64,000 nt of DNA from Oscillospiraceae bacterium. GTDB taxonomy: Bacteria > Bacillota > Clostridia > Oscillospirales > Oscillospiraceae. The position numbers and the translations under genes are program-made. This document shows, piece after piece, positions 109 to 5,945 of the stretch. The first letter of the stretch is position 1; each line of letters starts with the position of its first letter. Location: positions 1 to 64,000 of the forward strand of contig JAAWBF010000183.1 of assembly GCA_022792555.1 (NCBI GenBank), in the 5' to 3' direction. The notes under the pieces are model-generated. The model saw nothing but the letters and a program-made list of their open reading frames with translations, did no database searches and was not told the origin of the DNA.

Positions 109-1653
109 TCATTCCCACTCTATAGTAGCTGGAGGCTTACTCGTAATATCATAAACAATACGGTTTATCCCTTTAACTTCATTAATAATTTTGCTAGAGA
201 TTCGCTCTAAGACTTCATAAGGAATACGAGCCCAGTCAGCCGTCATAAAGTCAGAAGTAGTTACAGCTCGAAGCGCCAAAGTATAGTCATAGGTCCGCCC
301 ATCCCCCATAACACCTACTGAACGGGTATTGGTAAGAACGGCGAAATATTGATGGATATTTTGAGTCAGTGCAGCGGCAGCAATTTCATCCCGATAGATG
401 GCGTCAGCCTCTCGAAGAATGTCGAGTTTCTCTTTCGTAAGTGATCCAATTACTCGTATGGCCAAACCTGGGCCTGGGAAAGGCTGACGTGTTACCAGGT
501 ATTCAGGTAATCCCAACGCCCGGCCCAGCAGCCGGACCTCATCCTTAAACAGCGGGCGCAGAGGCTCAATAATTTCTTGAAAGTCTACACAGTCAGGCAG
601 TCCACCTACATTATGATGGGACTTAATCACTGCGGCGTCTCCGGTCCCTGATTCAATGACATCGGGATAAATAGTTCCCTGCGCCAGAAAGTTTACCTGT
701 CCAATCTTTCTGGCCTCCTCCTCAAAAACACGGATAAACTCCTCACCAATGATCTTCCGCTTATACTCCGGTTCTTCTACCCCAGATAATTTCGAAAGGA
801 ATCTCTTTTCTGCATTCACGCGGACAAAGTTTATAGACCATTTTCTAAAGGCGGTCTCTACCTCGTCTCCTTCGTTTTTTCTCATAAGGCCATGGTCAAC
901 AAAGACACATGTAAGCTGTTTCCCGATGGCCTCAGCCAGCAAAGCAGCACATACAGAGGAATCAACTCCACCAGATAGGGCAAGCAAAACCTTTCCATTC
1001 CCTACTGTCTCTCGGATGGATACAATCGAGGTATTCAGATAATCCTCCATGGTCCAATCCCCAACTGCACCGCAGATCTTGTAGAGAAAATTATGGATAA
1101 TCTCTGTGCCATGTTCCGTATGGTTGACCTCTGGGTGAAACTGAACCCCATAAAAGCCACGACACTCATTCGCAATTGCAGCCGTAGGACATACATCGGT
1201 ATGGGCCGTCATAAAAAACCCCTCTGGTACTTGCGCCATGTAATCACCATGGCTCATCCAGGTGATACTATTACTGGGGAGGCCGTGAAATAGTTTACAG
1301 TTTGGATCAAAATATGTGGTGGTTTTGCCATATTCCCGCGCTATATCGGTCTGTGCAGATGTTACTTGCCCGCCTAGCGAATGTGCAATCAGCTGACAGC
1401 CATAGCAAATCCCTAAAATAGGGACACCGAGCTGGAAAATAGCGTGGTCTATCTGGGGCGCGTCATCCAAATAAACACTGTTTGGCCCACCGGTAAAAAT
1501 AAACCCAATGGGCTGCAAGGACTTGAGTGTATCCAATGAAGTGGTATAGGGCTTGACCTCACAGTAGACGCCGCACTCTCGTACCCGGCGTGCAATCAGC
1601 TGGTTATACTGTCCTCCAAAATCCAAAATGATGATGGTTTGGTGCTGTATCAT
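109..1653 (-). CDS. guaA: GMP synthase (glutamine-hydrolysing)
   Basis: Converts XMP to GMP with ATP and glutamine, the last step of guanine nucleotide synthesis, in the cytosol. The N-terminal class I glutamine amidotransferase domain carries the nucleophile motif GICYGCQ and the FHPEV His/Glu motif. It is followed by the ATP pyrophosphatase loop LSGGVDSSV and a dimerisation domain ending in the family-typical PPATIEWE. Full length at 514 residues. The ATG follows AAGGAGT at good spacing. It stands alone, divergent from the DUF421 gene. I see no purine riboswitch in the 230-bp leader. guaB lies about 20 kb away on the same strand. Confidence 0.98.
719..747 (-). other. placeholder check of guaA interior (no feature)
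   Basis: This short interval lies inside guaA. Nothing separate from the coding sequence is claimed here; the guaA promoter is at 1719-1747 and is listed on its own. Confidence 0.01.
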
Positions 1654-1718
1654 GCGATCAACTCCTTATTCCCTAGGAAATATATCTTACAGATTGAAGA
1701 GCTTTTGAAACAGGCCTC

Positions 1719-1747
1719 ATTTTACACCTTTTTTAGGTTATATGCAA
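1719..1747 (-). promoter_or_regulatory. sigma-A-type promoter of guaA
   Basis: On the minus strand the sequence reads TTGCAT, 17 bp, TAAAAT. It lies about 65 bp upstream of the guaA ATG, which fits a short untranslated leader. It is called by eye from the consensus; there is no transcript evidence. Confidence 0.5.
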
Positions 1748-1803
1748 TGGTTAAGAGGCTTCTCTATACTTCCAGAATTGTCATACAGAGGGCACAAGAT
1801 TTA

Positions 1804-1833
1804 TGAATAGACAGGTCCTGTTTGGTCATACTG
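1804..1833 (+). promoter_or_regulatory. sigma-G-like (forespore) promoter upstream of the DUF421 gene
   Basis: The sequence TGAATA, 17 bp, CATACTG sits about 50 bp upstream of the DUF421 start. The classic sigma-G (and overlapping sigma-F) consensus is TGAATA-N17/18-CATACTA, so 12 of 13 box bases match. No comparable sigma-A promoter was found in this gap. It suggests late forespore expression of the downstream pair. This is pattern matching only. Confidence 0.45.
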
Positions 1834-1884
1834 ACTGAAGACATTCCTTTTGCCGTTTTTGGCATTTCCTGAGGAGGCGGTACT

Positions 1885-2565
1885 ATGGTAATCGCATTTC
1901 TGCGGACCATCATACTCTATTTGCTTATTATTGTAGGGATTCGATTGATGGGGAAACGGCAGGTTGGTGAGCTGGAACCATCCGAGCTAGTTTTGGCTCT
2001 TATTATTGCAGATCTGGCCGCAGTGCCGATGCAAGACTTTGGAATTCCCCTGCTCACTGGAATTATTCCCATCTTTACACTCTTATGTATTACGATGATC
2101 CTCTCTATTCTTACCATGAATAGTGTAAAATTTCGAGCCTTAGTCTGTGGTCGTCCTTCTATTATTGTAGAAAACGGTAAGATTCATCAGCGCGAGATGC
2201 AGAAGAACCGATTTACCCTAGATGAATTGATGGAGGAGCTGCGGATGAAGGGAATCACCGACCTTTCCACAGTGAAGTATGCCATTTTAGAGACAAATGG
2301 CCAGATCTCCGTCCTCCCCTATGCAAACCAGCTTCCTGTTACCGCAGAACAGATGCAGGTAACTCCAGATGATGTTGGACTTCCACTTATTGTAATCAAC
2401 GATGGTCATGTATTAGACCACAACTTAAGGACTCGGGGGCTGGACCGAGCATGGCTGCAAAAACAAATTTCCAAGTATGGTATAAAGGAGCCAGACGATG
2501 TATTTCTACTGACAGTCGATGAACAAAACAGGGTCTATTTTTCTGCCAAGGAGGTGCTGCAGTGA
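1885..2565 (+). CDS. DUF421 family membrane protein (YetF/YdfS-like)
   Basis: A 226-residue membrane protein of the DUF421 family. It has about three hydrophobic segments in the first 85 residues (including FLRTIILYLLIIVGIRLMG) and then a soluble C-terminal domain with the family's RPSIIVENGK and LRMKGITDLSTVKYAILE stretches. The molecular function is unknown. Related Bacillus proteins are found in spores, and DUF421-containing 2Duf proteins affect spore heat resistance. The start follows GAGGAGGCGG. The last codons overlap the next gene by GTGA, so the two are translationally coupled. A sigma-G-like promoter upstream supports, but does not prove, a spore role. Confidence 0.9.
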   Translation: MVIAFLRTIILYLLIIVGIRLMGKRQVGELEPSELVLALIIADLAAVPMQDFGIPLLTGIIPIFTLLCITMILSILTMNSVKFRALVCGRPSIIVENGKIHQREMQKNRFTLDELMEELRMKGITDLSTVKYAILETNGQISVLPYANQLPVTAEQMQVTPDDVGLPLIVINDGHVLDHNLRTRGLDRAWLQKQISKYGIKEPDDVFLLTVDEQNRVYFSAKEVLQ

Positions 2566-2942
2566 AACGGCTTTGGATTGCAATTGCTATTTTGCTGGCT
2601 ATCTTTTCTGCTAGCATCTGGAACGCCAGATTTTTGGCTGGATTTCTGTCTGACTTGAACGAGCTTCTTGTCCAAGCGGAGACATCCGCCGAGTCTGGCC
2701 GGTGGGAAGAGGCACTGCAACTGACCAGTCAAGCCCAGGAACGCTGGAAAAGTCATGACGCTTATCTGCACACTGTACTCCGTCATGCAGATCTTGATCA
2801 GGTAGACACCAGCTTTGGCGAGGTCCAGGAATTTTTGCAATGCCAGGAGCAGGGCGAATATTCAGCCTCTAACGCCAAGCTAATGACCCAGCTCATGCTT
2901 ATCTGGGAAGCAGAACAGCTCACCCTCCAAAATATACTTTAA
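2562..2942 (+). CDS. DUF4363 family protein
   Basis: A 126-residue protein with one N-terminal hydrophobic segment (LWIAIAILLAIFSASIW), probably a membrane anchor or uncleaved signal. The helical, charged remainder matches the DUF4363 pattern of small proteins found next to DUF421 genes in Clostridia. It starts with GTG, overlapping the stop of the DUF421 gene. The function is unknown. The tight coupling suggests it works with the DUF421 protein at the same membrane, with the C-terminal domain outside the cytoplasm. Confidence 0.8.
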   Translation: MKRLWIAIAILLAIFSASIWNARFLAGFLSDLNELLVQAETSAESGRWEEALQLTSQAQERWKSHDAYLHTVLRHADLDQVDTSFGEVQEFLQCQEQGEYSASNAKLMTQLMLIWEAEQLTLQNIL

Positions 2943-2974
2943 CAGAGGGTACAATCCCTCGTTGGTGGAAGTTT

Positions 2975-3621
<647 letters not shown>

Positions 3622-3675: not shown

Positions 3676-5583
3676 TCACTTGACCGATTTTTCCTTTGAG
3701 ATTTGGGTTATGGCTTCAGAGATATAGTTCTCTCCATATAGGAAATCGTATACAATAGAACGGTATAATGCAATGGTCTCCTCAGATTCCGGCGGGACCT
3801 GGTCATAAGCGGTACCGTCTGCACCTACAAAGAGCCGCTCCCGGTAGAGACTCATATCCTCCAATGCCTGGTCGACCCAGAGAAAATAGAGGGGCTTTTC
3901 CAGCCCAGTCCACTCCAGTAGCTTGCTGCCTAAGGCGGTACAGCTCAACTCGTCTGCAGCCTCCAGTTCAGCGCCAAAATTATTCCAAAGTAAAAATTGT
4001 GTACTGTGCATCCACTTGAGCTCCTCGGTTCCCCAATCGTTAGTACTTGCCGAGCTGGAATAGCCGAGCTTAGAGTAGATGGTGTCAGTCTCATCCAAAT
4101 ACAGTCCAGGGAGATGATCTCCCAAAAAAACTAGGAGAACAGGTTCCTCGCAGTCAGAGAAATAATCTACCAGCCGCTGGAGCGCGCGGTCTGCATCTCG
4201 CAATCCATGGACCAGTGCGTCTAAACTTCCAAGTCCCTCCTCATCCAAGATAGAACAGTCCAGTGGTATACCGGAACTGGTATTAAATTTAGCAGAAAAG
4301 TAGGGCTGATGATTTTCCATACTCAGGCCGTAGAGGAAGATAGGCCCCTCCCCTTTCGTTTCGAACTCCATAATAAGCTGATCGACCAGAGCGTCATCTG
4401 AGAGATAGCCGCCCGCTCTAGGGGCATCCTCTGGAAAATTATCCTCGTAGACCACCCGATCAAAGCCTAGACACGGGATATTATAGGCGCGGTTGTAGAG
4501 AGAATTGTTAAAGGCGTGGACCATCACAGTTTGGTAGCCCTGTGCGCCAAAGCTCTTAATCAGTGATGGAACCCGGCGGTAGGCGGTACGATCAGCGAGG
4601 TTGGTAAGCTCTTCCCCGGCACCCAAAAATGCAGAGGGAATTCCGGTAAAGATCTCCATTTCCACATTACCAGTTCCTCCAGCATAGGTATTAGAAAGAA
4701 ACTGTCCAGATGGGAAACGCTCCATCAGCGCATGAAAATTGGGGATGGGATCTGCGCCAAACTGTATATGTGGCAGCTGTGTAACATCAAAGAAACTCTC
4801 TGAGACCAATAATACAACATTAGGATATTGAGAAGGTGCTGAGGCTGGGGCTTCTGCTCTTCTCTGTTCCAACAGTCGTAAGATACGGTTCATGTTGTCC
4901 TCTGTATAGGCGGCTGGCTCCTGCATGGCGCTTTCACACAGTGCACTGTATAGACCAAGAGGGAGCCCCAAACGTTCATTCCGCTGGGCCTGGGTCTCGT
5001 TTTCCAACCCAGATAAGAGAGCGGTTGTGGGGGGAAACCACAGTACATTCAGCAGACTAGATGCGAGCAAGACAGCCGCAAAAGCACGTCTTTGGAGCTT
5101 TAGCGGCCTGACAGGTTTTGAAAAACAGAATGCAGCGGAAAAGAAAACCAAAGTCAAACCAACCGCCTGCCAGGTACCGTTCCCCAAGTTTATGCCCGGC
5201 CGTAAAAATCCAGCGATTTGTCCTGCTTGACCTGCCATCGCCAGATCACTGGCGAGGAGCGGGACGCCATTAACAGCCTCTTTCAAATGGCTTACAACAG
5301 CCAGGAGCAATAGGGGCAGTGTGACCCCAATCGCAGCACAAAGAAAGCTGCCGCTTAAGGCCTCCAGGAAAAGCTGGCACAACAGCAGGACGATGTAACT
5401 CAGAAACATAGCGTGGGTATGGCGGTCGATCCACTCCCATACAGCTGCCATGTCCTGAACTGTAATTAACTGGCAAATAAAAAAGGAAATCAGCGGTGCA
5501 GTAAAAATGAGCGTATACCGTATCCAAGGCCATGTCCGCCAATATGTACTCTTTTTGCTGTAGTTCAACACAGGATGGATCAT
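3676..5583 (-). CDS. LTA synthase family (sulfatase-fold) membrane protein
   Basis: A 635-residue polytopic protein. It has about five N-terminal membrane segments, then an extracellular alkaline-phosphatase/sulfatase-fold domain from roughly residue 250. Visible motifs are VVLLVSESFFD, the putative catalytic-threonine region YAGGTGNVEMEIFTGIPS and the metal-site motif FLGDHLPG. Family members transfer glycerol phosphate or similar groups to membrane polymers. The ORF-track start is too long. The ATG used here overlaps the stop of the SecB-like gene by ATGA and begins MIHPVLNYSKK. Whether it makes true lipoteichoic acid or modifies another glycan is unknown. Confidence 0.88.
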   Translation of the reverse strand: MIHPVLNYSKKSTYWRTWPWIRYTLIFTAPLISFFICQLITVQDMAAVWEWIDRHTHAMFLSYIVLLLCQLFLEALSGSFLCAAIGVTLPLLLLAVVSHLKEAVNGVPLLASDLAMAGQAGQIAGFLRPGINLGNGTWQAVGLTLVFFSAAFCFSKPVRPLKLQRRAFAAVLLASSLLNVLWFPPTTALLSGLENETQAQRNERLGLPLGLYSALCESAMQEPAAYTEDNMNRILRLLEQRRAEAPASAPSQYPNVVLLVSESFFDVTQLPHIQFGADPIPNFHALMERFPSGQFLSNTYAGGTGNVEMEIFTGIPSAFLGAGEELTNLADRTAYRRVPSLIKSFGAQGYQTVMVHAFNNSLYNRAYNIPCLGFDRVVYEDNFPEDAPRAGGYLSDDALVDQLIMEFETKGEGPIFLYGLSMENHQPYFSAKFNTSSGIPLDCSILDEEGLGSLDALVHGLRDADRALQRLVDYFSDCEEPVLLVFLGDHLPGLYLDETDTIYSKLGYSSSASTNDWGTEELKWMHSTQFLLWNNFGAELEAADELSCTALGSKLLEWTGLEKPLYFLWVDQALEDMSLYRERLFVGADGTAYDQVPPESEETIALYRSIVYDFLYGENYISEAITQISKEKSVK

Positions 5584-5945
5584 GATGAGATCTGGAGGCG
5601 TATAGGCATGAAACCCATACTTGAAGACAATTCCTCTATTTTGTCCTCCACTGCATGCTCCATAGCAGTTCGGCAAATTGCTTTTGTACCGGTTCCAAGC
5701 TCCATTGGCAGTGAGTTAAAGCCGAAAATACCGGCGGCTAGCAGTTCCATTTGGAAAACATTCTCTTCAGTCGCAGCCAGCATCAGGGAACATGTCACCA
5801 TTACATTGTGTTCCTCCGGATCCGCATTTCTCTTGATTTCCATTTCCTGGCGCAATGTAAGCTCTATGGTCTGATTGCCAAGGTTCATGGCATCAAAATG
5901 CAATTTTAAAACCTGAAAGCGCAGCATCGTCGGATTTTGTGTCAT
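5580..5945 (-). CDS. SecB-like chaperone superfamily protein
   Basis: A 121-residue cytosolic protein. A beta-strand-like N-terminal half (VTCSLMLAATEENVFQMELLAAGIFGF) and a C-terminal part (CRTAMEHAVEDKIEELSSSMGFMPIRLQ) follow the SecB layout of a conserved GIF turn, a helix at the position of the LFPYARE segment and a final P-x-x-L strand. The match is by eye and remote, so the family call is tentative. Firmicutes usually lack SecB, though SecB-like proteins exist in phages and clostridia. It is coupled (ATGA overlap) to the LtaS-like gene and sits first in the pair. Confidence 0.5.
   Translation of the reverse strand: MTQNPTMLRFQVLKLHFDAMNLGNQTIELTLRQEMEIKRNADPEEHNVMVTCSLMLAATEENVFQMELLAAGIFGFNSLPMELGTGTKAICRTAMEHAVEDKIEELSSSMGFMPIRLQISS

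Follow-up and report, generated by a model that had tools for sequence, protein, structure and literature searches.

Positions 1885–2942 of the window (the whole 64-kb stretch of DNA analysed, from a gut-type Clostridia genome) hold a DUF421 (YetF-like) gene followed by a DUF4363 gene, preceded by a forespore-type promoter at 1804–1833. The coupling of the two genes and the promoter are both widely conserved among spore-forming Clostridia, and the pair co-occurs with sporulation genes. YetF-type control of wet-heat resistance, membrane rigidity and germination in Bacillus spores was shown between 2023 and 2025. We consider it likely that the pair is a forespore-transcribed two-gene operon encoding a spore inner-membrane module related to YetF, the function being assigned by analogy to YetF. 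A forespore-loaded membrane module had already been put forward in a preliminary description of this DNA; the idea gains support from the orthologous promoters and from the Clostridioides difficile operon CD1789–CD1788 (PMC3789822), with the location and the function of the module here being predicted ones.

The gene pair and its promoter

The DUF421 gene (1885–2565, + strand, 226 aa) begins with an ATG 7 nt downstream of a ribosome-binding site, GAGGAGG, at 1871–1877, and its product matches PF04239, the YetF C-terminal domain, at 141 bits against a cut-off of 23.6 (E 1.5e-41). The DUF4363 gene (2562–2942, + strand, 126 aa) uses a GTG start that overlaps the DUF421 stop by 4 nt (GTGA); its ribosome-binding site, AAGGAGG, lies inside the DUF421 gene at 2548–2554, and its product scores 81.4 bits for PF14276 against a cut-off of 27.5 (E 5.7e-23). 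Given this overlap and a good ribosome-binding site for each gene, translation of the two is probably coupled. The source genome has a single gene of each family. On the − strand, the divergent GMP synthase gene guaA (109–1653, identified by eye from the translation in the list of open reading frames) lies outside the module. Behind the operon, frame-broken fragments of a glycoside hydrolase family 13 alpha-glucosidase-like gene (2975–3610, − strand; motif DNARTPMQW, by eye) constitute a pseudogene remnant, and the product of the gene at 3676–5676 (− strand), a membrane protein in which an LtaS-like sulfatase domain is recognized (PF00884, E 2.9e-31), is probably a lipoteichoic-acid-synthase-type enzyme.

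Read directly from the + strand, a −35 box TGAATA (1804–1809) and a −10 box CATACTG (1827–1833) are separated by a spacer of 17 nt. Scored against the sigma-G consensus TGAATA-17/18-CATACTA, the site agrees at 12 of 13 positions, as the preliminary description had stated; in a scan of both strands of the window at spacings of 17 and 18, no other site has at least 12 matches and just one further site reaches 11/13. The 2.75 Mb assembly contains two instances of the strict pattern KGHATA-N17-MATACTR, versus one of a reversed-pattern control. The other strict forespore-type box pair of the assembly (G000:C122:12737-12766, locus L273) is located just 5′ of an iron-alcohol-dehydrogenase-like gene, as identified by eye. 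A loose forespore pattern was uninformative across the whole assembly, with 21 matches versus 29 for its reversed control.

The absence of a visible sigma-A promoter, also noted at the outset, was upheld by a sigma-70-like scan of positions 1600–3100, which returned two matches in total versus 2.4 expected and nothing usable upstream of the pair. Because these matches come at chance number, and the lone + strand match (1859–1886) overlaps the DUF421 start codon, a credible sigma-A promoter is absent, and vegetative transcription of the pair from such a promoter was rejected.

Promoter conservation and co-occurrence with sporulation genes

To avoid circularity, SASP genes of the same order were the sole source of upstream regions for training a two-box profile. 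Its seed was the sigma-G consensus, a motif that it hence favours, and shuffles and gene controls were scored identically. DUF421 upstream regions scored a median of 9.5 bits versus −0.1 bits for shuffles (p 3e-24) and, with a local background, 9.8 bits versus 0.1 bits for dinucleotide shuffles (p 1e-23). Scores of at least 7.9 bits were attained by 72% of order-level DUF421 genes and by 0/43 other genes of the window (p 9e-14), with about a quarter of the order-level orthologues lacking a convincing site. Among 80 named Clostridia loci, 25% reached at least 10 bits, versus 0.5% of 198 neighbouring genes there (p 9e-16). Matches to the consensus at 10 or more of the 13 positions were present in 44% of DUF421 upstream regions versus 5.7% of dinucleotide shuffles. 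The best orthologous sites are mostly positioned 15–50 nt 5′ of the start codon; a CATACTG or AATACTG variant recurs upstream of orthologous pairs, and among close relatives the −10 box often ends in G, as it does at 1827–1833. An alignment of orthologous upstream regions had been proposed as a check on the promoter, and the comparison made here with the SASP profile was positive, recovering the same type of boxes. A chance match was rejected on the basis of the shuffles, the real-gene controls and the orthologues. The promoter thus appears to be conserved across the order and the class, which is new as far as the literature searched shows.

The source genome carries SpoVAC and a SASP gene. 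Across 196 Clostridia genomes, 124 possess both DUF4363 and SpoVAC, 24 SpoVAC only, six DUF4363 only, and about 42 neither; SpoVAC is therefore present in 124 of the 130 DUF4363-positive genomes (odds ratio 36, Fisher p about 2e-19, relatedness being ignored). The six DUF4363-positive genomes without a SpoVAC match count against the sporulation reading.

Could the boxes have arisen by chance, with the pair serving as a general membrane module expressed vegetatively from an unrecognised promoter? DUF421 proteins are also found in non-spore-formers (E. coli, Lactococcus and Deinobacterium, among the controls), and some orthologues have no detectable site. However, conservation of the orthologous promoters far exceeds both shuffled and real-gene controls, a sigma-A-like promoter is absent, and the phylogenetic profile of DUF4363 tracks that of sporulation genes, which together make this explanation highly improbable.

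Sigma-G and sigma-F at the promoter

The three bases 5′ of the −10 box are GGT, giving an extended −10 region GGT-CATACTG at 1824–1833, and a GG immediately before the −10 box (here 1824–1825) is a known feature of sigma-F promoters. The site is consequently better described as forespore-type than as strictly sigma-G: of the sigma-G-like promoter originally described, the forespore character, conserved in orthologues, stands, and the strict sigma-G assignment does not. In C. difficile, sigma-F promoters bear a conserved G before the −10 box (PMC3789822), and the SigF and SigG consensus sequences overlap broadly (PMC7438776). As the SASP-trained profile from the same order possesses the same G, and given the overlap in C. 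difficile, the two sigma factors are not separable at this site by sequence, which points to the forespore as the compartment.

Transcription mainly by sigma-F, earlier in the forespore and with a minor contribution from sigma-G, would resemble that of B. subtilis yetF, which has a sigma-F promoter (PMC10126465). Consistent with it are the GG at the sigma-F position, which recurs in 11 of 33 tabulated orthologous sites, and an assembly in which the SigF gene adjoins the spoIIAB gene and a SigG match is missing. We nevertheless regard it as unlikely: i) the G does not discriminate, since SASP promoters of the same order bear it; ii) in C. difficile, SigG but not SigF affects CD1789, though its promoter is SigF-like in sequence (PMC7438776); and iii) most relatives possess SigG. 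In the source assembly (G000, 85.8% complete), no SigG gene scoring above the SigF level was found; because of this incompleteness, and because most relatives have the gene, its absence is probably an assembly gap. In our preferred reading, the operon would be transcribed in the forespore from 1804–1833 by sigma-G, possibly also by sigma-F.

Two further genomes, G048 (100% complete) and G012 (95%), also lack a SigG match above the SigF level, and these two and G000 all have SpoVAC and the DUF421–DUF4363 pair. In four other relatives, sigG is broken near codons 91–107: G022 (L182, G022:C20:1-9500), G003 (L183/L184), G004 (L185/L186) and G037 (L187/L188). In G022 the two parts of the gene share a contig, with 6.4 kb between them, and in the other three they are on separate contigs. 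In all three genomes with readable junctions (G022, G003 and G037), the break falls at one conserved place, between STYGVPM and IGEIRR, and both junctions have a common short core, CCGATGA, extending up to CCGATGATTAT; in two of these three, the 3′ half lies directly against a gene for a large serine recombinase (PF00239, PF07508). This recalls intervening elements of the skin type, with the difference that a forespore gene is interrupted and that excision there would be inherited; an assembly error or a rearrangement could also account for the break.

The proposed DUF4363 partner and the YetF family

The DUF421 protein has three N-terminal hydrophobic stretches (residues 1–19, 36–54 and 60–78), and its AlphaFold2 model, of moderate confidence (pLDDT 78.7), shows three long helices together with a pair of similar alpha/beta lobes. 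It matches the YetF crystal structure PDB 3c6f (E 2.6e-23). As modelled, it would have the YetF-family organization of three N-terminal membrane helices and a C-terminal two-lobed soluble domain, which, by the positive-inside rule, given the positive GKRQ loop that follows the first stretch, should face the spore core. YetF itself is a homotetramer in the spore inner membrane.

Hydropathy of the DUF4363 protein reveals a single N-terminal hydrophobic helix, and the confident AlphaFold2 model (pLDDT 93.6) a long membrane helix that continues into a bundle of helices. The N-side of this helix is the more positive one in 74 of 85 proteins, and the soluble domain is probably outward-facing; a lipoprotein-like Cys motif in two spoVA2-linked DUF4363 copies, with a similar Cys in a third (L142, by eye), likewise places the domain outside. 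With the soluble domains predicted on opposite sides of the membrane, any contact between the two proteins should run through the membrane helices. A Foldseek search with the DUF4363 model yielded generic four-helix bundles, none with E ≤ 0.001, some of which are extracytoplasmic sensor domains such as that of NarQ. The signal for a distant relationship to YpjB (Spore_YpjB, PF09577) was too weak to adopt it: against 44 DUF4363 members, PF09577 gave three weak matches (best E 3e-4), below the cut-off and comparable to those of other helical families.

A model for the pair emerges in which the DUF421 protein would cross the membrane with three helices and point its soluble domain towards the core, and the DUF4363 protein would be inserted by a single helix and expose a four-helix bundle at the outer face. 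The two would most likely reside together in the spore inner membrane. Both would stiffen the membrane, raise wet-heat and chemical resistance and modulate germination, as YetF and its relatives do in Bacillus; the outer-face DUF4363 protein would most simply be a subunit or an anchor of a YetF-like complex.

The DUF4363 family is present in 47 of 60 relatives, and in all 46 of their loci that were read the DUF421 gene is directly upstream on the same strand. Class-level DUF4363 loci are paired with DUF421 in 30/30 cases, and DUF4363 adjoins DUF421 in 76 of 80 named DUF421 loci, mostly from Clostridium and other Clostridia; the scan of named genomes gave no locus from C. difficile. The coupling is near-absolute, and it spans proteins whose identity falls to about 20%. 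A second DUF421–DUF4363 pair lies directly beside a cluster of 2Duf, spoVAC, spoVAD, spoVAEb and DUF1657 genes at five loci (L138–L142; domains checked in one example of the five), an arrangement that is new as far as the literature searched shows. The promoter signal of these spoVA2-linked DUF421 genes is weak (median 4.6 versus 1.6 bits, p 0.016).

The predicted opposite placement of the soluble domains, and fold matches that are generic four-helix bundles, some from extracytoplasmic sensors, would also suit a DUF4363 protein that is a translationally coupled passenger with its own job, for example in cortex or germination signalling at the outer face, and not a subunit of a DUF421 complex. 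The essentially absolute coupling over very divergent lineages, retained in the spoVA2-linked second pair, favours a joint function and leaves the passenger explanation rather improbable. Tentatively, and with slightly more hesitation than conviction, we suggest that DUF4363 could be a dedicated, obligate outer-face subunit of clostridial YetF-type complexes and an unrecognised constituent of the spore inner membrane. Bacillus would lack this subunit or have a substitute for it, and Clostridia would employ it in two settings, in the stand-alone forespore operon and beside 2Duf/spoVA2. The five YetF homologues of B. subtilis work in a genome with no DUF4363 protein above the Pfam cut-off, which weighs against the proposed module. 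The family was not found by name in the literature searched, and as far as that literature shows an obligate DUF4363 partnership would be new.

The pair is itself of an already known kind, since C. difficile CD1789–CD1788 is listed as a SigG-controlled DUF421 operon whose CD1789 product is spore-associated (PMC3789822). Both systems are single operons in which a DUF421 gene precedes a small membrane-protein gene, and the mapped forespore promoter of CD1789–CD1788 (PMC3789822, PMC7438776) shares the sigma-F/sigma-G ambiguity. They differ in lineage, and CD1788, described as a membrane protein (PMC6174930), is at most a candidate DUF4363 protein. The C. difficile YetF homologue is also present in the spore inner-membrane proteome (PMC10126465).

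With B. subtilis YetF, YdfS, YrbG, YkjA and YdfR, the protein described here shares the DUF421 fold, three membrane helices and forespore expression, which here is predicted (PMC10126465, PMC12548441); in contrast, a DUF4363 partner is not described for the Bacillus proteins, and B. subtilis has five DUF421 proteins versus one here. The likeness to 2Duf (spoVA2mob) extends to the DUF421 domain and the forespore operon. However, 2Duf carries a fused C-terminal DUF1657 and has spoVAC/AD/AEb as neighbours, whereas DUF421 is the sole domain found in the 226-aa protein, which is therefore not a 2Duf, and the pair at 1885–2942 is flanked by guaA and the sulfatase-domain gene.

Loss of YetF-family proteins in Bacillus lowers heat and chemical resistance, alters germination and increases inner-membrane fluidity (PMC10126465, PMC12548441). 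If clostridial YetF-type proteins need DUF4363 as an obligate partner, models of spore resistance based on Bacillus miss a component.
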